33,692 nucleotides of DNA from Clostridiales bacterium (GTDB lineage: Bacteria; Bacillota; Clostridia; Saccharofermentanales; Saccharofermentanaceae), in NCBI GenBank assembly GCA_024691135.1, contig JAILNZ010000005.1:1-33692 (forward strand). The letters run 5' to 3'. Shown piece by piece: positions 2,078 through 33,692 of the stretch. Numbering within the stretch: position 1 is the first letter of the stretch; every line of letters begins with the position of its first letter. The translations under genes and the position numbers were made by a program. The notes beneath the pieces were generated by a model. The model saw nothing but the letters and a program-made list of their open reading frames with translations. It was not told the origin of the DNA and did no database searches.

Positions 2078-2804
2078 TGACGACGGTATCGAGCTGCATG
2101 TTGAACTCGAAAAGCCCGCTGATCCGCCCCCGCGGATGCCTCTGGTGATCGTGATCCACGGCTTTACGGGGAACATGGAGGAAGAGCACATACTGGCCGC
2201 TTCGAGGACCTTCAGGGATCTGGGGTACGCGACGCTTAGAGTCGAGATGTACGGCCACGGCCAAAGCGGCGGATCATTCAGGGATCATACCCTCCTTAAG
2301 TGGATCGGGAACGCTCTTACCGTTATCGATTACGCGTTGACTTTGGACTTCGTTACGGACATCTACCTGTGCGGCCACTCCCAGGGCGGTCTGACCGTCA
2401 TGCTAGCGGGCGGCCTCAAGCACGACGTCATAAAGGGACTGATCGAACTTGCCCCGGCGGCGATGATCCCCGAGCTCGCGAGGCAGGGGCAGCTCCTGGG
2501 CTACGACTATGATCCCGACAACATTCCCGACGAGCTCATGGTAAGACCCGGCATGCCCCTCGGCAATAACTACGCCAGAACGGCGCAGCTGATCCACATC
2601 GAGGACGCGATCGACAGATATGACGGGCCCGTCCTGATCGTTCAGGGAACGTCTGATTATCCGGAACTCATAAAGTCCGCGGAGTTCGTTTCAAAGCGCT
2701 ACAGAAACTGCACCTATGTCACGATCGAAGGATCGACGCACTGCTACGACGGCCACATCGCCGATATGGAGAACGCCATAAGAGGCTGGATTCCGGAGGT
2801 TTGA
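2067..2804 (+). CDS. Alpha/beta hydrolase (serine esterase-like)
   Basis: In-frame ATG at 2067 (the 1956 ORF start is too early). HGFTGN oxyanion segment, GHSQGG nucleophile elbow, DYPE acid region and STHCYDG histidine. Overlaps the GNAT end by 11 bp. Confidence 0.85.
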   Translation: MFINDDGIELHVELEKPADPPPRMPLVIVIHGFTGNMEEEHILAASRTFRDLGYATLRVEMYGHGQSGGSFRDHTLLKWIGNALTVIDYALTLDFVTDIYLCGHSQGGLTVMLAGGLKHDVIKGLIELAPAAMIPELARQGQLLGYDYDPDNIPDELMVRPGMPLGNNYARTAQLIHIEDAIDRYDGPVLIVQGTSDYPELIKSAEFVSKRYRNCTYVTIEGSTHCYDGHIADMENAIRGWIPEV

Positions 2805-2866
2805 GTTTATTGGTTGTGCTCTTACCCATACTGGCGGTAGAATAAAAAATCTACGATTAGTATTAG

Positions 2867-2893
2867 CAGTCGGTTTAAAACCGGCTGCTTTTC
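2867..2893 (+). terminator. Hairpin with short U-tract upstream of the XRE regulator
   Basis: GCAGTCGGTTTAAAACCGGCTGC followed by TTTTCGTTT: strong stem with one T-G wobble. Confidence 0.45.
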
Positions 2894-2936
2894 GTTTATC
2901 ATACAGACAGATGAGACGAAAGGAGCGGAACCGTTT

Positions 2937-4001
2937 ATGGAACTTCGGTTAGGCGAGAACATAAAGAAAATGAGAAAAGACAGGGCTCTTACACAGGAAG
3001 GCCTCGCTGACGCGCTGGGCGTCACGACCGGAGCCGTCTACAAATGGGAGTCCGGCCTTTCCGTCCCCGAGCTTACGATGCTCGTCAAGCTCGCCGACTA
3101 TTTTGAGGTCTCCGTGGATGTCCTCCTCGGCTACAAGAAGCTCGACGGGCGCCGCGAAGAGATCGCGCAGCAGATCTACCGGTACATCGGGGCCAAGGAC
3201 CGGTCCGGCATCGACGAAGCCGAGCGCGCGCTCCTCAAATACCCGAACGACTACGGGATCATCAAGGCGGCCGCAAACATCTGGGCCAGCTTCGGCATCG
3301 AGGAAAAAGACCATGAGATGATGAGACGGAGCATCATGCTTTTCGAAAAAGCGCTGACGCTTATACCGAACGATGAGGATCCCCGGTACGGCGAGCTCGC
3401 CATCTACGGCAGCATCGCGACGATCTACTACACCCTTGGCGAGAGGGAGAGAGCGGTCAGCATCCTCAAGAAAAACAACAAGGGCGGGATCTTCAATACC
3501 GAGATAGGCTCGATGATGTCGCTCGATCACGCCCGGTCCGCCGAGTGCAGGAATTATCTCATGAACGGTTTCATTCAGGTGAATTCGCGGCTGATCAACA
3601 TGGCTTTCGGCCTGAACTGCTTCTATAAGGAGCAGGGTGATATGACGATGGTCAGGGAAGTTTCCGAATGGATACTGAACTACATAGAGAGCATCAGGGG
3701 CAGTGCCGATATCTGTTACGCGGACAAGATCGGCAGCGCATATCTGGTCTGCCTGAGCTACGCAGTGTACAGGCTCGAAGGCGAAGATCAGGGAAGAGAA
3801 TATCTCATAAAGGCGAAGTCTCTCGCGGAAAGATTCGATTCCTCGCCCGACTACCGCCTTCCGAGCAGGTTCTTCGGCGGCGCGGAGCAGGGCAGTTCGT
3901 ACGACATATTGGGCAGAACCGCTTCCGAGTCGATCGAAACGGCCCTGGATTTTATAAAAGACAAAAAGTTCACGGCGTTATGGAATAAGGTCAACGCATA
4001 A
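2937..4001 (+). CDS. XRE-family HTH regulator with TPR-like C-terminal region
   Basis: LGENIKKMRKDRALTQEGLADALGVTTGAVYKWESGLSVPELTMLVKLADYFEVSVDVLLGY is a classic HTH_3. RBS AAAGGAGCGG upstream. Confidence 0.9.
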   Translation: MELRLGENIKKMRKDRALTQEGLADALGVTTGAVYKWESGLSVPELTMLVKLADYFEVSVDVLLGYKKLDGRREEIAQQIYRYIGAKDRSGIDEAERALLKYPNDYGIIKAAANIWASFGIEEKDHEMMRRSIMLFEKALTLIPNDEDPRYGELAIYGSIATIYYTLGERERAVSILKKNNKGGIFNTEIGSMMSLDHARSAECRNYLMNGFIQVNSRLINMAFGLNCFYKEQGDMTMVREVSEWILNYIESIRGSADICYADKIGSAYLVCLSYAVYRLEGEDQGREYLIKAKSLAERFDSSPDYRLPSRFFGGAEQGSSYDILGRTASESIETALDFIKDKKFTALWNKVNA

Positions 4002-4012
4002 AGGAGTTCATC

Positions 4013-5731
4013 ATGAAAAACAAAGATCTGTATGCGGAACTGAAAAGTCAGTTCCTTAGGGGAAACCGCGCAAATTTTGTGCTTGCCGTCATCGGCTCGT
4101 TCATGTCGGGAACAGTCTGCATGGGCGTATCCTGGGGCGCGGGCGAGCTGATCGACACCGCGGCGGGAGCGGGCACCAGAAGTATCGGTGAGCTCGCCGC
4201 CGCCGCACTCGGCATAATCGTATTCCTTCTTCTGTCATCCCTCATCTCCTGCTTCTCGCAGCCTCGATACATTCGAAAAGCGATGTGCAACTATAAGGAA
4301 AAGGTCTTCTCTCTCCTCACCGGAAAGAACATCTCCTCCTTCGTCAAAGAAAGCACCGCGACATACCTGTCGGCACTCACGAACGATGCCGTCTCGATCG
4401 AGACAAACTATCTCGACAAACAGTTCCAGCTCATCACCAGAGTCGTCTCCTTCTTCGGCGCTCTCACCATGATGCTGATCTATTCACCCCTTTTAACTTT
4501 GATAGCGGTTGCCGTCACGATCCTGCCTCTTCTTGTATCAATCATATCGGGCGGCAAACTTGCTTCAAAGGAAGTCAGCGTCTCCGACAGGAACCGCAGC
4601 TTCACGGGCACCATCAGCGACTGCCTGAGCGGTTTCACCGTGGTCAAGAGCTTCCGCGCCGAGAAAGAGATCTTCGACCTCTTCGCAAAGGATAACAGCA
4701 GGCTCGAGGGCGAGAAATGCGCCAAGCGCACCCTCCAGATCTTTGTCGGCACGCTGGGCCTTTTCGCTGGCATCACGGCGCAACTGTCGATATTCTTCGC
4801 GGGTACCTACATGGCCGTCACCGGCAAGGGCATCACCGCCGGCACCGTCATGATCTTCGTAAACCTCATGAACTTCCTGATCCAGCCGGTCGCAGAACTT
4901 CCGGGCCTCCTGGCCGCCCGCAAAGCCTCCCTTGCCCTTGTTCGTAGGATCGCCGAGTGCCTCCGCAAAGACTCTTTCACGGGCGGCACCGCCGAGCTCC
5001 GCAAACTTGACGGAGCCATCAGCATAAAGGACGTGTCCTTCTCCTACGACGACGACAGGGAAGTCCTGCACGACATCTCCTTCGACTTCGAGGCCGGCAA
5101 ATCCTACGCGATCGTCGGCGGCAGCGGCAGCGGAAAATCGACACTCCTCAACCTCCTCCTCTCCGGCGCGGGCGGTTCCGATTACAAAGGCTCGATCCGC
5201 TGGGACGGCACGGAGCTGCGCGACTGCTCGTCCGACTCACTCTTCGAGCAGGTCTCGTCGATCCAGCAGAACGTCTTCGTATTCAACTCGTCCATCAGGG
5301 ACAACATCACGATGTTCCGTGACTTCTCGAAAAAGGACGTCGATGCCGCCATCAACCGCGCCAACCTCAGCGGCCTCATCGCCGAGCGTGGTTCCGACTA
5401 TCTCTGCGGTGAAAACGGAAGCGGCCTGTCAGGCGGCGAGAAGCAGAGGATCTCGATCGCCAGGAGCCTTCTCAAGGACTCTTCCGTCCTCCTCGCCGAC
5501 GAGATCACGGCCGCTCTCGATTCGCAGACGGCGCACCGCGTGTCATCCGACATACTCGATCTGACCGGCATCACAAGGATCGTTGTCACGCACTCGCTCG
5601 ACGAGAGTCTCATGAGGCGCTACGACAAGATCCTGGTCATGAAAGACGGCAGGATCAAGGAATCCGGAACCTTTGACGAGCTCCTGGCGAAGAAGGATTA
5701 TTTCCACGCATTATTCACCGTCTCCGTCTAA
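4013..5731 (+). CDS. ABC transporter, fused permease/ATP-binding exporter
   Basis: N-terminal TM region, Walker A GGSGSGKST, signature LSGGEKQR, Walker B VLLADEITAALD. Confidence 0.93.
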   Translation: MKNKDLYAELKSQFLRGNRANFVLAVIGSFMSGTVCMGVSWGAGELIDTAAGAGTRSIGELAAAALGIIVFLLLSSLISCFSQPRYIRKAMCNYKEKVFSLLTGKNISSFVKESTATYLSALTNDAVSIETNYLDKQFQLITRVVSFFGALTMMLIYSPLLTLIAVAVTILPLLVSIISGGKLASKEVSVSDRNRSFTGTISDCLSGFTVVKSFRAEKEIFDLFAKDNSRLEGEKCAKRTLQIFVGTLGLFAGITAQLSIFFAGTYMAVTGKGITAGTVMIFVNLMNFLIQPVAELPGLLAARKASLALVRRIAECLRKDSFTGGTAELRKLDGAISIKDVSFSYDDDREVLHDISFDFEAGKSYAIVGGSGSGKSTLLNLLLSGAGGSDYKGSIRWDGTELRDCSSDSLFEQVSSIQQNVFVFNSSIRDNITMFRDFSKKDVDAAINRANLSGLIAERGSDYLCGENGSGLSGGEKQRISIARSLLKDSSVLLADEITAALDSQTAHRVSSDILDLTGITRIVVTHSLDESLMRRYDKILVMKDGRIKESGTFDELLAKKDYFHALFTVSV

Positions 5732-22980: not shown

Positions 22981-24816
22981 TTACCTGTGCTTTTTGGTCC
23001 TCTTCTCGACGTACATGATCTTGTCAGCCTTGTTCATGGATTCCATGAGAGTGCTCCAGTCGCTGACTTCGCATGTACCGATGCTCGCGCTCAGAGTGTA
23101 GTTCAGCTTTTTGTTGGCTTCCTTGATCGCGTTCCTGAACGACCTTATGAACTGGCCGATCCTGCCCGGGTTATCGAGGAACAGAACGGCCTCGAACTCG
23201 TCGCCGCCCATCCTGGCCACGAACTCGTTCCTGTTGATCGATTTCTGGAGGCACTTGCCGATCATGATGATCGCCTCATCGCCCGCGGAGTGACCGAAGT
23301 TGTCGTTGATCGACTTCAGGTCGTCCATGTCGATGCTCGCGACGGCGAGCTTCGTGCCGTCGCCTTCCTTCTTTTTGTCGAGGATGTTCGAGAGATATTT
23401 CTCGAAGCCTCTCCTGTTATAAAGGCCCGTGAGCGCGTCCCTTATATAGAGGTCCATGACGTCGCTTACTTCAAAGAGCTTATTGTAGAGGCGGAGACGG
23501 TTGAGCGACTGGCCGAGAAGAAGGAGCATGAACTCGAGCCTCTCGTCAAAGAAACGCTTGATCTTGCTGTCCATCTCCAGGACGGCATAACCGTAAACTT
23601 CGTTCTTAAAATGTATAGGCAGATAGATCCTTACGCCCGAAAAATCAGCGTTGTATTTTTTCGGGAGGAGGTCAGTCATAGGGAAGGAGATGTCACATGC
23701 CTTCTTGTCCTTTGTGTCGAACATTCCGACGAGGGAGCGGTCGTTCTCGCCGTACATACAGATGAAGCCCTTCTTGAAGATCTTCAGGGCCATGATGCTC
23801 TGCAATGTCAGGAGCACGCAGTCGTCCTTGGACATTACGTCCTGATAATCGGAACTGAGCCTTACGAAGGCGAGAGTCTGGTCAAAGTATGTCTTCTGTA
23901 TGAGATCGAATTCGTGATAGGCGGCAGTCAGGTCCCTCTCAGTCGTTCCGCCGGTGCTCTCCCTGATAAAGAGCCTGCCCGGGACGGTCATATAGAAATC
24001 GACCTCTTTTCCCTCCTTGATATCCTCGAGACATTTGATCGCCTTATCGACAAGACCGTCTTCCGGGATGTCCGATGTCGTGAGGGAAGGGATGTGGTTA
24101 AGAGCCGGCGGGAGATTGTCGACGCCCGTGACCATGACATCCTGAGGGATCTTATATCCCCTGTCCATGAGTTCGTCGATAAGTCCCAGGGCCATATAAT
24201 CGTTGGAACAGATGACAGCTTCGGGAAGCGTTCCGTCCTTGCGGATAAAGAAGTCTGCCGTGGCAGGACCCTGGTCGATCCAGTAGTTGCCGTGGAATAT
24301 CATGTCTTCGCTCACGGTGTAGCCCGCTTCGTGCATCGCGTCCTCAAAGCCCGCGCGTCTTTCCTTCGAGTCGACGAGGTCGTCACGGCCGGCGACGAAG
24401 CCGATGTCGCCGTTCTTAGTGACGGAGAGGACATGCTTCGTGATGTCATACATGATGAGCCTGTTGTCCGGGACGATGTTATAGAATCCTTCCTCGTCGC
24501 ATCTGATGCTGATCACGGGAGGGATGTCGGAAGCCGACATGAGATTATCGAGGAGCTCTTTGTTGAGACCTGCGTGATGCAAAGTGTCGGAACAGAGGAT
24601 TATTCCGTCATATTCATGAAGCGGCGGGATGTTAAGGATACTCTTCAATCCTTCGGCGTGAAGCGGATTGTCGCTCGATACGGCACAGTTACCGAAAATG
24701 TCCACACGGTGTCCGTTCTTGACGGCACGCTCCATGAGGCTTCTGATAACAGCCGACGAATAGTCGCGATACATATCTCCGATAAAAGCACATATTCTCA
24801 TAGGCAGATACCTCAC
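22981..24816 (-). CDS. Cytosolic PBP-like (LacI-type ligand domain) sensor diguanylate cyclase with GGDEF domain
   Basis: N-terminal ligand-binding fold (ICSNDYMALGLIDELMDRGYKIPQDVMVTGVDN), GAF-like middle, DALTGLYNRRGFEKYL and intact ARMGGDEFEAVL. No signal peptide. Confidence 0.88.
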   Translation of the reverse strand: MRYLPMRICAFIGDMYRDYSSAVIRSLMERAVKNGHRVDIFGNCAVSSDNPLHAEGLKSILNIPPLHEYDGIILCSDTLHHAGLNKELLDNLMSASDIPPVISIRCDEEGFYNIVPDNRLIMYDITKHVLSVTKNGDIGFVAGRDDLVDSKERRAGFEDAMHEAGYTVSEDMIFHGNYWIDQGPATADFFIRKDGTLPEAVICSNDYMALGLIDELMDRGYKIPQDVMVTGVDNLPPALNHIPSLTTSDIPEDGLVDKAIKCLEDIKEGKEVDFYMTVPGRLFIRESTGGTTERDLTAAYHEFDLIQKTYFDQTLAFVRLSSDYQDVMSKDDCVLLTLQSIMALKIFKKGFICMYGENDRSLVGMFDTKDKKACDISFPMTDLLPKKYNADFSGVRIYLPIHFKNEVYGYAVLEMDSKIKRFFDERLEFMLLLLGQSLNRLRLYNKLFEVSDVMDLYIRDALTGLYNRRGFEKYLSNILDKKKEGDGTKLAVASIDMDDLKSINDNFGHSAGDEAIIMIGKCLQKSINRNEFVARMGGDEFEAVLFLDNPGRIGQFIRSFRNAIKEANKKLNYTLSASIGTCEVSDWSTLMESMNKADKIMYVEKRTKKHR

Positions 24817-28203: not shown

Positions 28204-28235
28204 TACTTTGACTATCAAAGTATCGGTGATAATAT
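28204..28235 (+). promoter_or_regulatory. Promoter with overlapping palindromic operator upstream of the lipid operon
   Basis: TACTTTGA-CTA-TCAAAGTA (8-bp perfect arms) overlapping TTGACT (-35 like, 28208-28213), with TAATAT/GATAAT -10 candidates at 28228-28235. Confidence 0.6.
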
Positions 28236-28283: not shown

Positions 28284-28874
28284 ATGGTCAGATACATATT
28301 GATGATGTACATAACACTTGTTCCGGCGATCCTTGCGGGCATCGTTGTCATGATATGGTGTAAACTTCCGGTCCTGAAGGCGCTCTCGAAGCCGGTCGAC
28401 TTCGGAAGAAACTTCGCGGACGGCAAGAGGATATTCGGTGACAACAAGACCTGGAAGGGTATTTTGGGATACGTTCTGTTCAATATGATTTTTTCCGTTC
28501 TCTGGGGCCTGGTCCTCGGAAACGGCACTTTAAGAGACCTCGACTTTTTCTATCAGCAGCATGACAACACGTTTTTATATAACCTTCTGACCGGATTTCT
28601 TCTGGGGCTGGGCTATTCGCTCTTCGAGCTTCCCAACAGTTTCCTCAAAAGAAGGATCGACGTAACTCCCGGCAAGACCAAGAAAGGTTTTTGGAAGGTG
28701 TTTTTCGTGTGTCTGGATCAGGCGGATTCCGTATTCGGCGTCGCACTTGTGGTATGGCTGTTCTACCCTCTGGGGATCGGCTTATACCTGCTCTACGTCC
28801 TGGTCGGTTCATTGACACATCTGTTCCTCAACATGATGCTGTACTTCATGAGGCTGCGTAAAAATATGTTTTAA
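28284..28874 (+). CDS. CDP-archaeol synthase (CarS)-like / CTP:lipid cytidylyltransferase family membrane protein
   Basis: ADGKRIFGDNKTWKGILGYVLFN, ELPNSFLKRRIDVTPGKT and DQADSVFG match the CarS/CDP-diglyceride synthase-like signature. Confidence 0.75.
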   Translation: MVRYILMMYITLVPAILAGIVVMIWCKLPVLKALSKPVDFGRNFADGKRIFGDNKTWKGILGYVLFNMIFSVLWGLVLGNGTLRDLDFFYQQHDNTFLYNLLTGFLLGLGYSLFELPNSFLKRRIDVTPGKTKKGFWKVFFVCLDQADSVFGVALVVWLFYPLGIGLYLLYVLVGSLTHLFLNMMLYFMRLRKNMF

Positions 28875-28885
28875 GGGGTAGGACG

Positions 28886-31387
28886 ATGATAGTCAGATTT
28901 GACGGCAGGGAAGACGGAAATGAGAAACTGGGGAATAAGGGCAGATTCCTGCTTGAGATGAGAAGGTGCGGCATCAACGTACCTGACGGCTTCGTGCTCG
29001 ACAGCGACGTCTATGACAAGACGGTCGCGCCCGTAAAAAGCGGCATCAAAGAGATCCTCATGACGCTTACGAAGGATAACATAAGGGAAGTGTCGGAAAA
29101 GATATCGGCACTTCTTGACGGCGTGTCTTTGGACAAAGAGATAACGGATGAGATCAACTCCCTCACTTCGGATGATAAGCTCTACGCGGTAAGGAGCAGC
29201 GGCATCAAGGAAGACCTGGACGAGGCTTCTTTCGCGGGGCAGTATGATACTTTTCTTAACACACCGCGCGAAAACATACCGCAGAAGATAACAGAGTGCT
29301 ATAAGTCCATGTTCGGTGAGGTTATATTGAGCTATCTGATCGACAGGACGATCGATATCGAAGACCTTAAGATGGCAGTTGTCGTTCAGGAGATGGTCGA
29401 TTCCGACTTAAGCGGCATCTGTTTTACGACAGATCCCGTGACGGGCAGGGACAAGATAATGCTCATCGAAGTATCCGAGGGATTAGGCGAGAACATAGTA
29501 AGCGGAAAGACGGTCCCCGACAGATATCACTACGACTGGTATGAGAAAAGGGAAGTCGGAAGGGACCCCCGAAACAAGCTCCTCACAGAAGAGCAGGTGA
29601 AAGATCTGGCGGAAAATTTCTCTTCGATCCAGCAGCATTTCGGCTATCCGTGCGACATCGAGTTCGCCTTGAAGGACAACGTACTTTATATCCTCCAGTC
29701 GAGAAAGATAACGAAGATAAGCTATACGGGCATAGACGACATGTGGACGACGGCCGACTTCAAGGACGGCGGCGTCTCGGCGACTGTCTGCACACCGTAC
29801 ATGTGGAGTCTCTATGAATATATCTGGGAATATTCCTTAAGAAAGTTCATCGTCGATTCGAAGATCTTAAGAGACGACGAGCTCCCCAAAAAACTCGGCG
29901 AGATGTATTACGGCCGATGCTACTGGAACATGTCCGCGGTCAAGAAGACGATGAGCAGGATCGTGGGATATAAGGAGAGGGAATTCGATAACGAATACGG
30001 CATAGCAGGAAACTACGAAGGCGACGGGGAAGTTACTTCGCCGACACCGAAGGTCCTGTTCCGCATGATCCCGATCATCATAAAGCAGAAGGCGCTCCTG
30101 GACGACAGGAAGAAGAATTCGGAAAAGTATAAAAACGAGCTTCTCGATCTTTATTACGGTTATAAGGACCGGCTCGACAACGGTAAGATCAGAAGCATTG
30201 AAGAGGACTTCGTGAAGATCACGAAGGAAACATACCTGAGGAGCGAGACGACTTATTTCTGGCAGATATTCATCAACACGATCCACCAGTCGCTCTATAA
30301 AGAGAGCCTTCTTAAATACGTGAGCGAGAGCGAGTATCTGTCGCTCCTCGGAAGCATCGACAACATCTCCCACCTCCTGCCGTTCTACGACATGTGGGAT
30401 ATCACGAGGGAGATAAGAAAAGATCAAAAAGCAAAGAATTTCTGGGAGGAAAATGACCCGGAAACGATCGCGAAGGAACTTAGAAGCGAAGGCTTTTTCA
30501 TGCCGAAGGTAAATAAGCTCATCGAAGATTACGGATATCATTCCGACAAGGAACTCGACATCACTTATCCGTGCTACTACGAGGAGCCGGAAGTCCTGAT
30601 CGCGATGGTAAAGGACATGGTCCTTCTGGACGATTCGTTCTCGCCCGTCGAAGACAAGGAAAGAGGCACAAAGGTCTATAAGGACATCCTCGATGGCATC
30701 TCGAAAAGGGTATCAAAATCGAAGTATAAAAAGATCTCCTCCAAGGTCAAGAACATGCGCAAGATGCTCTGGTGGAGAGAAGAATTCAGGGACGTATCCA
30801 CAAGGTTCTACTACATGCTCAGGATGTACACCGTAAAGTACGCCCAAAAGCTCGAAAAAGACGGAGTGCTGGGATCCCGGGAAGATGTCTGGTTCCTGAA
30901 GGTCGGCGACCTCTGGGACTATACCGAAAACAAAAAGACAGGCGAAGACTTAAGAGATCTGATAGAGAAAAACAGATTCTACTATAACGCATTCAGGAAC
31001 TATATAAGCGACAACGAGATAGGTCACGACATAAAGAAAACTGACGAGGGAAAAACGGGAGATACGATAAGGGGACTCGGAGCAAATAACGGCAAGGTCA
31101 CGGCAACCGCGAGAGTCATCGAAGACTTTACGAAGATCGACAGGCTTCAAAAAGGCGACATACTCGTAACGAGATTTACGGATACGGGATGGACACCGAA
31201 GTTCGCGATACTGTCGGGAATCGTAACCGAGTACGGCGGTATACTCTGTCACGCCGCGATCGTGTCAAGGGAATACGGAATCCCCGCGATAGTATGCTGC
31301 AAGGATGCGATGAGCAGGATAAAGGACGGTCAGATCATAACGATAGACGGGTCTGACGGAACGGTAACGATACCGGACGGTGAATGA
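28886..31387 (+). CDS. PEP synthase / rifampin-phosphotransferase-like dikinase (PPDK_N ATP-grasp plus phosphohistidine domain, no TIM barrel)
   Basis: KLGNKGRFLLEMRRCGINVPDGFVL, YAVRSSGIKEDLDEASFAGQYDTFLN, DPVTGRDKIMLIEVSEGLGE, ILQSRKIT; C-terminal GGILCHAAIVSREYGIPAIV phosphohistidine swivel domain ends the protein. Confidence 0.85.
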   Translation: MIVRFDGREDGNEKLGNKGRFLLEMRRCGINVPDGFVLDSDVYDKTVAPVKSGIKEILMTLTKDNIREVSEKISALLDGVSLDKEITDEINSLTSDDKLYAVRSSGIKEDLDEASFAGQYDTFLNTPRENIPQKITECYKSMFGEVILSYLIDRTIDIEDLKMAVVVQEMVDSDLSGICFTTDPVTGRDKIMLIEVSEGLGENIVSGKTVPDRYHYDWYEKREVGRDPRNKLLTEEQVKDLAENFSSIQQHFGYPCDIEFALKDNVLYILQSRKITKISYTGIDDMWTTADFKDGGVSATVCTPYMWSLYEYIWEYSLRKFIVDSKILRDDELPKKLGEMYYGRCYWNMSAVKKTMSRIVGYKEREFDNEYGIAGNYEGDGEVTSPTPKVLFRMIPIIIKQKALLDDRKKNSEKYKNELLDLYYGYKDRLDNGKIRSIEEDFVKITKETYLRSETTYFWQIFINTIHQSLYKESLLKYVSESEYLSLLGSIDNISHLLPFYDMWDITREIRKDQKAKNFWEENDPETIAKELRSEGFFMPKVNKLIEDYGYHSDKELDITYPCYYEEPEVLIAMVKDMVLLDDSFSPVEDKERGTKVYKDILDGISKRVSKSKYKKISSKVKNMRKMLWWREEFRDVSTRFYYMLRMYTVKYAQKLEKDGVLGSREDVWFLKVGDLWDYTENKKTGEDLRDLIEKNRFYYNAFRNYISDNEIGHDIKKTDEGKTGDTIRGLGANNGKVTATARVIEDFTKIDRLQKGDILVTRFTDTGWTPKFAILSGIVTEYGGILCHAAIVSREYGIPAIVCCKDAMSRIKDGQIITIDGSDGTVTIPDGE

Positions 31388-31388
31388 T

Positions 31389-32000
31389 ATGTTTATAGGC
31401 AAATGGAACAAGTCGGTCATATTGACATACATCGGGGCGATGTTCGCGGTAGCGGGAATCTTCCTCGCGTTTTCCGCGGACAAGATCACATATTCATACT
31501 GCTGTCTGATGATGGCGGGTATCTGTGATCTCTTTGACGGAATGGTCGCAAGAAGATGCAAGAGGACCGACGAGGAGAAGAGGTTCGGGATCGAACTTGA
31601 TTCGCTCGTTGATGTCATCAGTTTTATAGCTCTTCCGGTATGCATCTTTATCGCCATGGGACTTAAGCGCATATGGGATCTTCCGATCTTCATGCTGTTT
31701 TCGATATGCGGTGTCGCAAGGCTCGGATACTTTAACATCGCGACTGCCGACAGCGAGAAGGCGGTAAAGTTCTATACGGGTCTTCCGGTCACTTTCTCGG
31801 CACTGATCTTCCCACTTATCTATCTTCTCAAGGTGCCGCTTCCGAAGGGCATCTTCAAGTATGTCTTTGAAGGCGTGACAGTATTAGTCTCGATCCTTCA
31901 GATCCTTAAGATAAAGATCCCCAAGCCGAAGGGGATCTGGTACGGGATATTGGGACTTCTCGCGGCCGTCATGCTCACGGTCTATCTGGTCTTTTTGTGA
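31389..32000 (+). CDS. pssA: CDP-alcohol phosphatidyltransferase, phosphatidylserine synthase type
   Basis: CDP-OH-P motif DGMVARRCKRTDEEKRFGIELDSLVD plus CGVARLGYFN typical of PssA. ATG 1 bp after the upstream stop. Confidence 0.85.
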   Translation: MFIGKWNKSVILTYIGAMFAVAGIFLAFSADKITYSYCCLMMAGICDLFDGMVARRCKRTDEEKRFGIELDSLVDVISFIALPVCIFIAMGLKRIWDLPIFMLFSICGVARLGYFNIATADSEKAVKFYTGLPVTFSALIFPLIYLLKVPLPKGIFKYVFEGVTVLVSILQILKIKIPKPKGIWYGILGLLAAVMLTVYLVFL

Positions 32001-32008
32001 GGGATGAT

Positions 32009-32866
32009 ATGAAGGTCTACGACAGACAGAAAAAAGAATATGAGACCTCTGATCAGTACGGTCAGGAGAAGCTTAGATTCCTCTATGAAAATGCTATCGG
32101 AAGACTGCTCCTTCGGCTCGCCGTGTCGCACTTTGTATCAGGGATCTATGGCAGTATCAATTCTCGAAAAAGCTCCGCTAAAAAGATACCCGGTTTTATC
32201 GAAAAGCATCATATCGACATGAGCGATTTTGAAGAGGAAAAATACGGAAGCTTCAATGAGTTTTTCGTAAGGAAGATAAGGCCGGAGAAAAGACCGTTCA
32301 GCATGAGAAAAGATGTCTTTATATCACCCGCGGATTCAAAGCTTCTCATGTACGGGATAGACGAAGATACGAAGCTTTTTATCAAGGGCAGGGAATATAC
32401 GCTCGACGAGATAACGGGAGGGACTTATACAGAAGGGTTTAAGGGCGGACATGCATTTGTCTTCAGGCTGTGCATGGACGATTATCACAGATACTGTTTT
32501 ATCGATGACGGGAAGGTCGTATCGGAAAAAAGGATAAAGGGAAGACTTCACACGGTAAGTTCCTTTTCGAGAGACCATAAGATCTATAAGGAGAACACGA
32601 GACAGGTAAGCGTCCTTAAGACGGAGAACTTCGGCATGGTCATCATGATAGAAGTCGGTGCGCTCCTGGTGGGAAAGATAGTTGATCATGACATCAAGGA
32701 GTTTAAGAAGGGGCAGGAGAAGGGTTACTTTGAGCCCGGCGGATCGACTGTTATAATCATTACCGGAGATAATATCGAAGTTGATGAAGACATTATGGAA
32801 CAAAGTTCAGCCGGGATAGAGACCAAGGTCAGATACGGCGAGAGGATAGGGACATCAAGATGCTGA
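32009..32866 (+). CDS. psd: Phosphatidylserine decarboxylase proenzyme
   Basis: FNEFFVRKIRPEKRPF, ISPADSKLLMYG, HRYCFIDDGKV, and GGST maturation motif FEPGGSTVIII. Confidence 0.88.
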   Translation: MKVYDRQKKEYETSDQYGQEKLRFLYENAIGRLLLRLAVSHFVSGIYGSINSRKSSAKKIPGFIEKHHIDMSDFEEEKYGSFNEFFVRKIRPEKRPFSMRKDVFISPADSKLLMYGIDEDTKLFIKGREYTLDEITGGTYTEGFKGGHAFVFRLCMDDYHRYCFIDDGKVVSEKRIKGRLHTVSSFSRDHKIYKENTRQVSVLKTENFGMVIMIEVGALLVGKIVDHDIKEFKKGQEKGYFEPGGSTVIIITGDNIEVDEDIMEQSSAGIETKVRYGERIGTSRC

Positions 32867-33692
32867 AACGACTTCATATCTACTTCAAGGAACGTTATCC
32901 GATCATACCGAGACTTATACTCGGCATCATCGTTTTTCTCGAGATACATTTCATAATCCTTCTGAACCTGGGAGTTACGAAGGATCAGTTCAGGATCGGC
33001 ATTCAGGAATCCGTCGGTGCGTGGACGGTCTTCGCATTCCTTTTGTGGCTCAGGATCGCGGACGATCTCAAGGATTTTGAGACGGACAAGAGGCTGTTTC
33101 CGGACAGGCCCCTGCCGAGCGGAAGAGTATTCAAAAAAGATGTCATGGTCGCCTGCGTAGTAGTTCAGATCATAACGGTCGTCCTGAACGTCATCTTCAT
33201 GAGAAAATGCATCATCTTCTTCGTGATCTTATATATCTACGGATACCTGATGAGCAAGTGGTTCTTCAAGAAAAAGAAGATACAGCCGAGCCTTCCTCTG
33301 GCGCTCGTGACGCATAATCCGGTTCAGGCATTCATCAACCTCTACATCATCTCATTTACGGTCATAAAATACGACCTGCCGTTCTTTACGCTGACGAACA
33401 TCATGGCGCTCTGGACACTCTATTTTCCGGCTCTCATATGGGAGGTCTCAAGAAAGATCAAGGCGCCGAAGGACGAGAATGATTACACGACATACAGCAA
33501 GCTCTTCGGCTACAAGAAGGCGACACGTTTTGTACTCATACTTACGATCGCCGATATCATCACGAACTTTATCCTCGTTTGGAACCTGAACAAGATCTCG
33601 GTTTTGGTCCTGGCACTCCTCGTGTCATGGATGACGTGGAAGTTCATCCGGTTCATGAAGGACCCGGAAAAGTTCACGCTCGTAAACAAGGT
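32860..33692 (+). CDS. UbiA-family prenyltransferase (truncated by window end)
   Basis: Not in the ORF track because it has no stop in the window. Translation MLKRLHIYFKERYPIIPRLIL...LRIADDLKDFETDKRLFPDRPLPSGRV...EVSRKIKAPKDENDYTTYSKLFGYKKA: two Asp-rich UbiA motifs. Overlaps the psd stop by 7 bp. Confidence 0.82.
   Translation, partial: MLKRLHIYFKERYPIIPRLILGIIVFLEIHFIILLNLGVTKDQFRIGIQESVGAWTVFAFLLWLRIADDLKDFETDKRLFPDRPLPSGRVFKKDVMVACVVVQIITVVLNVIFMRKCIIFFVILYIYGYLMSKWFFKKKKIQPSLPLALVTHNPVQAFINLYIISFTVIKYDLPFFTLTNIMALWTLYFPALIWEVSRKIKAPKDENDYTTYSKLFGYKKATRFVLILTIADIITNFILVWNLNKISVLVLALLVSWMTWKFIRFMKDPEKFTLVNK

Follow-up and report, generated by a model that had tools for sequence, protein, structure and literature searches.

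The substrates of characterised enzymes of RPH or PEP-synthase architecture are pyruvate, antibiotics, phenols or pyrroles. In the rifampin phosphotransferase RPH-Lm, Lys22, Arg117 and Thr136 are needed on the ATP side, Arg666-Glu667 is required when the phosphate passes to the drug, and His825 is the phosphate carrier (PMC4844700). The two-component small-molecule dikinase HpeHI has an ATP-grasp (9goj) related to that of dik1, the dikinase described here, and transfers phosphate to a hydroxyl by a His swivel, but dik1 differs from it in that HpeHI consists of two separate subunits and acts on phenolic substrates in a degradative pathway (PMC12167813). The prodigiosin ligases PigC and RedH are like dik1 in layout and related to it in sequence but they condense pyrroles and occur in another context. 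PpsA and PPDK share the ATP-grasp and His domains with dik1 whereas their His domain is central and is followed by a TIM barrel. On the lipid side, the archaeal route of CDP-archaeol synthase, archaetidylserine synthase and decarboxylase resembles the operon that holds dik1 in bringing CarS-like, PssA-like, Psd and UbiA-family proteins together; the operon differs in scoring below the archaeal cut-offs and in having dikinases, a GNAT and an AMP ligase in addition. In the open-access literature we found no description of this operon, of any lipid dikinase, or of a lipid kinase of RPH or PEP-synthase architecture, and absence there is not proof of novelty.

The dik1 gene is located at positions 28886..31387 of the forward strand of the window, which is the whole stretch of 33,692 nucleotides that was analysed, and it encodes 833 aa from an ATG start with AAGGGG just upstream. 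In a Pfam search, PPDK_N was matched at aa 13-217 (E 9.7e-60, plus a second stretch) and PEP-utilizers at aa 755-825 (E 5.4e-25), and neither PEP-utilizers_C nor a PEP-pyruvate barrel was found. The ATP-grasp domain (aa 1-278; 28886..29719) is followed by a middle, putative acceptor-binding domain (aa 279-725; 29720..31060), and the protein ends in a phosphohistidine swivel domain (aa 726-833; 31061..31384) with the His motif GGILCHAAIVSREYGIPAIV, whose His789 (31250..31252) is the predicted phosphate-carrying residue and is invariant across all dikinases compared. The preliminary description, made from the sequence alone, had already recognised an N-terminal ATP-grasp, an unassigned middle, a C-terminal His domain and the absence of the barrel, and this layout is confirmed, with a middle stretch of about 450 aa that runs from roughly aa 278 to aa 726. 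Orthologs of dik1 with about 51-77% identity, most of them full length, were found in more than 80 other genomes, and a chance ORF is thereby excluded.

When the PDB was searched by sequence with dik1, RPH-Lm ranked first (E 2.2e-75). In a fold search with an AlphaFold model of dik1, for which 28 orthologs served as input (pLDDT 78.6), the best match was RPH with AMPPNP and rifampin (5hv1, E 2.5e-38; see also 5fbs), and the middle domain of the model matched RPH along its length; PEP synthase and PPDK ranked below RPH with much shorter alignments. The residues of both half reactions are retained, in that RPH-Lm K22, R117, T136, R666-E667 and H825 align with dik1 K18, R103, T122, R631-E632 (30776..30781) and H789, and E259, Q271 and R273 of the ATP-grasp domain are likewise aligned to RPH-Lm. 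These catalytic residues are kept in dik1, in dik2 (a second dikinase of the operon) and in further paralogs, the exceptions among 19 dik1 rows being Ser at position 122 in two and Lys at 631 in one. From the fold match and the conserved residues, dik1 is an RPH-architecture His-swivel dikinase with a predicted RPH-like mechanism, which agrees with the earlier choice of an RPH-type enzyme over a PEP synthase.

The automatic family names given to such proteins, PEP synthase or rifamycin phosphotransferase, would suit a rifampin-inactivating kinase or a true PEP synthase that is located here by accident. This is extremely improbable since dik1 lacks the PEP/pyruvate barrel, the operon is kept across many genera, and the rifampin-contact pair Gln336-Gln337 of RPH-Lm, which the compared RPHs of Streptomyces and Bacillus retain, is replaced by Phe292-Lys293. 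On the rifamycin phosphotransferase model NCBIfam NF041857 dik1 scored 325.5 bits against a cut-off of 999, and this score and the missing Gln pair indicate that it is not a rifampin enzyme, nor RPH proper, though RPH-like in its working. For the role of drug or xenobiotic kinase, a stronger candidate within the genus is dik3, a third RPH-layout paralog with about 778 aa, which lies beside a TetR-like regulator (L144 4343-7296; L145 4282-7177; L146 512-3481; L147 4066-6967). The PigC and RedH models gave 308 and 300 bits with dik1, and these high scores together with the common layout would favour a ligase in which, as in prodigiosin synthesis, phosphoryl transfer drives a condensation and no phosphate ester is released. 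However, the scores are far under the cut-offs of 1300 and 1350, respectively, and PssA/CarS chemistry requires a phosphorylated lipid, and we consider a ligase very unlikely.

Across orthologs the conservation of aa 279-390 and 441-520 was 0.81 compared to 0.65 for the ATP-grasp domain, and 42 of the 130 invariant residues in the middle domain were aromatic or His as against 14 of 110 elsewhere (Fisher p 4e-4). In the PDB sequence search no recognisable RPH match was obtained at the acceptor region, about aa 280-500. This pattern is compatible with a large, specific and apolar acceptor, although aromatic residues also serve folding and their enrichment may reflect that, which weakens the case for a lipid alcohol as acceptor. 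No membrane segment was found in dik1, and most characterised dikinases have soluble substrates, both of which would be in keeping with phosphorylation of a small soluble precursor such as serine or glycerol for the head or the backbone. But PssA-type enzymes use free serine, so that PssA and Psd chemistry does not need phosphoserine; the partner of dik1 is carS and not pssA; and the middle domain is large, conserved and rich in aromatics. A soluble precursor is therefore quite unlikely, and the version of the preliminary description in which serine or another headgroup precursor is phosphorylated is left unsupported.

The gene immediately upstream of dik1, with a gap of 11 bp, encodes a CarS-like CDP-lipid synthase, a membrane protein of 196 aa (28284..28874, forward strand, as are all operon genes of the window; PF01864, E 3.8e-19). 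Its profile hits CDP-archaeol synthase (structure 5guf, E 6e-7), and GDNKTWKG, LPNSFLKRR and DQADS are invariant. Downstream are a pssA-like CDP-alcohol phosphatidyltransferase gene whose start overlaps the end of dik1 (31380..32000; PF01066, E 8.3e-14), a phosphatidylserine decarboxylase gene, psd (31997..32866; PF02666, E 7e-48), with the GGST processing site, and a PRK13592-like prenyltransferase gene of the ubiA family (32860..33690; PF01040, E 2.5e-11) with a DDxxDxxxD motif, which is cut by the contig end. The cytidylyltransferase, CDP-alcohol transferase and decarboxylase families thus stand together in one operon, carS-pssA-psd. The CarS-like protein scored 78 bits against the archaeal equivalog (cut-off 148) and UbiA 385 bits against PRK13592 (cut-off 443), and the NCBIfam archaetidylserine synthase and PssA models scored the PssA-like protein equally, both under cut-off. 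That CarS, PssA, Psd and UbiA all fall under their equivalog cut-offs fits altered substrates, as far as profile scores can tell. An archaeal-type G1P ether-lipid pathway was considered and rejected, as PcrB/GGGP synthase (PF01884) had no match over cut-off in 59 congeners.

The window stops inside the operon, and contig C122 of the same genome opens with the same ubiA 3' end, 333 bases long and at 100% protein identity. This contig (locus L020) continues with dik2, a second dikinase of RPH layout (394-2685), a gene for a predicted tandem GNAT with an HRGLGKA motif of the acyl-CoA type (2675-3751), and amp, a gene for an AMP ligase of the acyl-AMP type (3753-5213). The GNAT protein was not recognised by any Pfam or NCBIfam model and a sequence search of the PDB with the GNAT profile was also empty; it was the fold search of its model that returned a tandem GNAT. 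These genes and the role of ubiA were absent from the preliminary description, and with dik2 in the same operon a second kinase step also needs explaining. A promoter-like site upstream of carS (28208..28235, forward strand; TTGACT-16-TAATAT with TG before the second hexamer) is a candidate operon promoter by consensus scan only, a scan that gave 11 sites in the region where 8.4 are expected by chance; neither the promoter nor the terminator scan of the region was clearly above chance, and an Rfam search gave only tRNA. On the opposite strand, a few kb before the operon, positions 22981-24816 encode a protein that by eye resembles a LacI-type sugar-binding domain joined to a GGDEF domain. Several kb upstream of the operon at two loci (L016 251-1309; L017 4682-5737) is a protein of 351-352 aa that by eye resembles the glycerol-1-phosphate-dehydrogenase type (AraM-like).

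In 80 loci of other genomes the order is carS - dik1 - pssA - psd - ubiA - dik2 - gnat - amp. Many of these genomes were assembled from metagenomes, and some of the record titles under which the loci stand (Fibrobacter, Saccharibacteria) are probably incorrect. Where contigs were long enough, ubiA was present in 72/73, dik2 in 73/73, gnat in 65/66, psd in 70/74, pssA in 63/76 and amp in 53/62, the last three genes showing some loss or shuffling. The carS gene adjoins dik1 in 78 of the 80 loci with a median gap of 14 bp; of the two others, L086 has its carS truncated at the contig end and L102 starts inside dik1. This adjacency bears out the tie to a CDP-lipid pathway that had been proposed from the neighbouring genes. 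Every ortholog locus examined had dik1 within the operon or, at one contig edge, leading into pssA-psd-ubiA, and homologs are thus not found mostly outside lipid operons. Seven operon proteins evolve in parallel (mirror-tree r 0.67-0.94, 50 loci), as expected for an operon inherited as a unit. When 399 genomes of the phylum were searched with the ubiA profile, the window's own genome alone gave a match, and the operon is therefore patchy. CdsA was found in 37/39 congeners, which makes CarS an extra cytidylyltransferase, and in most operon carriers the sole Psd is that of the operon. The membrane-lipid operon of this gut bacterium is conserved across many genera and has apparently not been described. 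Two seeming UbiA-dik2 fusions were discarded; a 1012-aa frame (L028 9441-12479) that joins a shortened ubiA to a start-less dik2 is probably a deletion or misassembly, and a 1931-aa frame in genome G668 resolves to separate genes.

Among 60 congeneric genomes a dik1 ortholog was present in 32, ubiA was present in 31 of these and in none without dik1, the sole exception (G031) having dik1 at a contig edge. This near-perfect co-occurrence of dik1, dik2 and ubiA raises the question whether dik1 belongs to the UbiA half of the operon, where dik1 and dik2 would phosphorylate a prenol or prenyl acceptor for UbiA and CarS would take its phosphate from that product with no separate lipid kinase step. 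In line with this, in two loci (L067 and L068) pssA-psd are relocated to the operon end and dik1 stays beside ubiA. In those loci, however, carS and dik1 are still paired, as they are almost throughout the 80 loci, and there are clusters with BtaA, described below, that hold a dik2-like dikinase and usually UbiA without dik1, from which it follows that the UbiA half does not need dik1. A place for dik1 in the UbiA half is thus unlikely, though less so than the other alternatives.

The clusters without dik1 were found by a class-wide search for dik2-like dikinases. Four sister clusters (L123 6224-15267; L124 9519-18169; L126 7405-15362; L143 8032-16569), which represent three genera since two of them share a genus, each contain one dik2-like dikinase together with GNAT, AMP ligase and BtaA (DUF3419), and carS, dik1, pssA and psd are all missing from them. 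UbiA is clear in three of the four, and in L123 there is at most a short remnant. DUF3419 occurs in 4/391 class genomes, which are exactly the four genomes with these clusters. In the dikinase tree dik2 groups with the dikinases of the BtaA clusters (100/96) and dik1 forms a separate clade (100/100), with the placement of long branches unsure; dik1 and dik2 are thus not recent tandem duplicates. In the sister clusters BtaA replaces carS-dik1-pssA-psd beside the dik2/GNAT core. Enzymes of the BtaA family transfer an aminocarboxypropyl group from SAM to a free lipid hydroxyl, giving a homoserine head, and there is no phosphate step. Since BtaA acts on a free lipid hydroxyl, a lipid alcohol is the plausible end product of the shared core, and we infer that dik1 belongs to an alternative head module that needs phosphate. 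It is this swap of head modules that strengthens the lipid-alcohol version of the preliminary description. Three of the BtaA clusters also encode a 445-aa membrane protein that matched no family and that by eye resembles the CTP-dependent dolichol/phytol-kinase type.

CarS-like proteins were found in 7/301 class genomes, five of which have dik1, and the other two are those of loci L125 and L160. The variant cluster L125 (4510-11980) has the order dik - ubiA - carS - HMG-CoA reductase fused to an EcKL/APH-type kinase - pssA, and the kinase domain occupies the position of dik1. This domain may be a mevalonate kinase, given an HMG-CoA synthase match in that genome. In L160 (7875-10103) the operon is decayed: behind a truncated carS, psd is fused in frame to the N-terminal portion of dik1, and ubiA, dik2 and gnat are gone.

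The best-supported reading, and one that we regard as somewhat probable, is that dik1 is an RPH-like dikinase that phosphorylates the lipid alcohol of the operon for CarS. In favour of it are the match to RPH and the conserved catalytic residues, the pairing with carS even where pssA-psd are relocated, the co-occurrence of dik1 with ubiA, the BtaA swap, the restriction of CarS-like proteins outside dik1 genomes to L125 and L160, and the conserved aromatic middle domain. Against it are the small number of BtaA clusters, one of them lacking a clear UbiA, the possible mevalonate kinase of L125, and the chance that PssA could draw CDP-diacylglycerol from the ordinary CdsA. As for the order of steps, we infer that the ATP-grasp domain would transfer the beta-phosphate from ATP onto His789, releasing AMP and Pi, upon which the C-terminal domain would swing to the middle domain, where R631-E632 would help to hand the phosphate to a hydroxyl, most likely that of a lipid alcohol which the other operon enzymes produce. 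CarS would then convert the lipid phosphate to a CDP-lipid, PssA would add serine and Psd would decarboxylate it, giving a phosphoethanolamine-headed lipid. UbiA and dik2, together with the tandem GNAT and, in many loci, the AMP ligase, would build or acylate the lipid.

If this is true, lipid enzymes would be among a group of proteins that carry the label 'PEP synthase'. It is possible, and we suggest it tentatively, that Clostridia that live in the gut or degrade plant material have an undescribed class of membrane lipids with a backbone made by UbiA and a His-swivel dikinase and with interchangeable heads, either phosphoethanolamine, for which a second His-swivel dikinase would act as lipid kinase together with CarS, PssA and Psd, or a homoserine-type head from BtaA. 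The exchange of the phosphate-head module for BtaA provides a genetic handle on the product of the shared core, and what would then be a membrane lipid of bacteria common in rumen and gut could be sought directly in the cultured carriers Pseudobacteroides cellulosolvens and Butyrivibrio sp. XPD2006.
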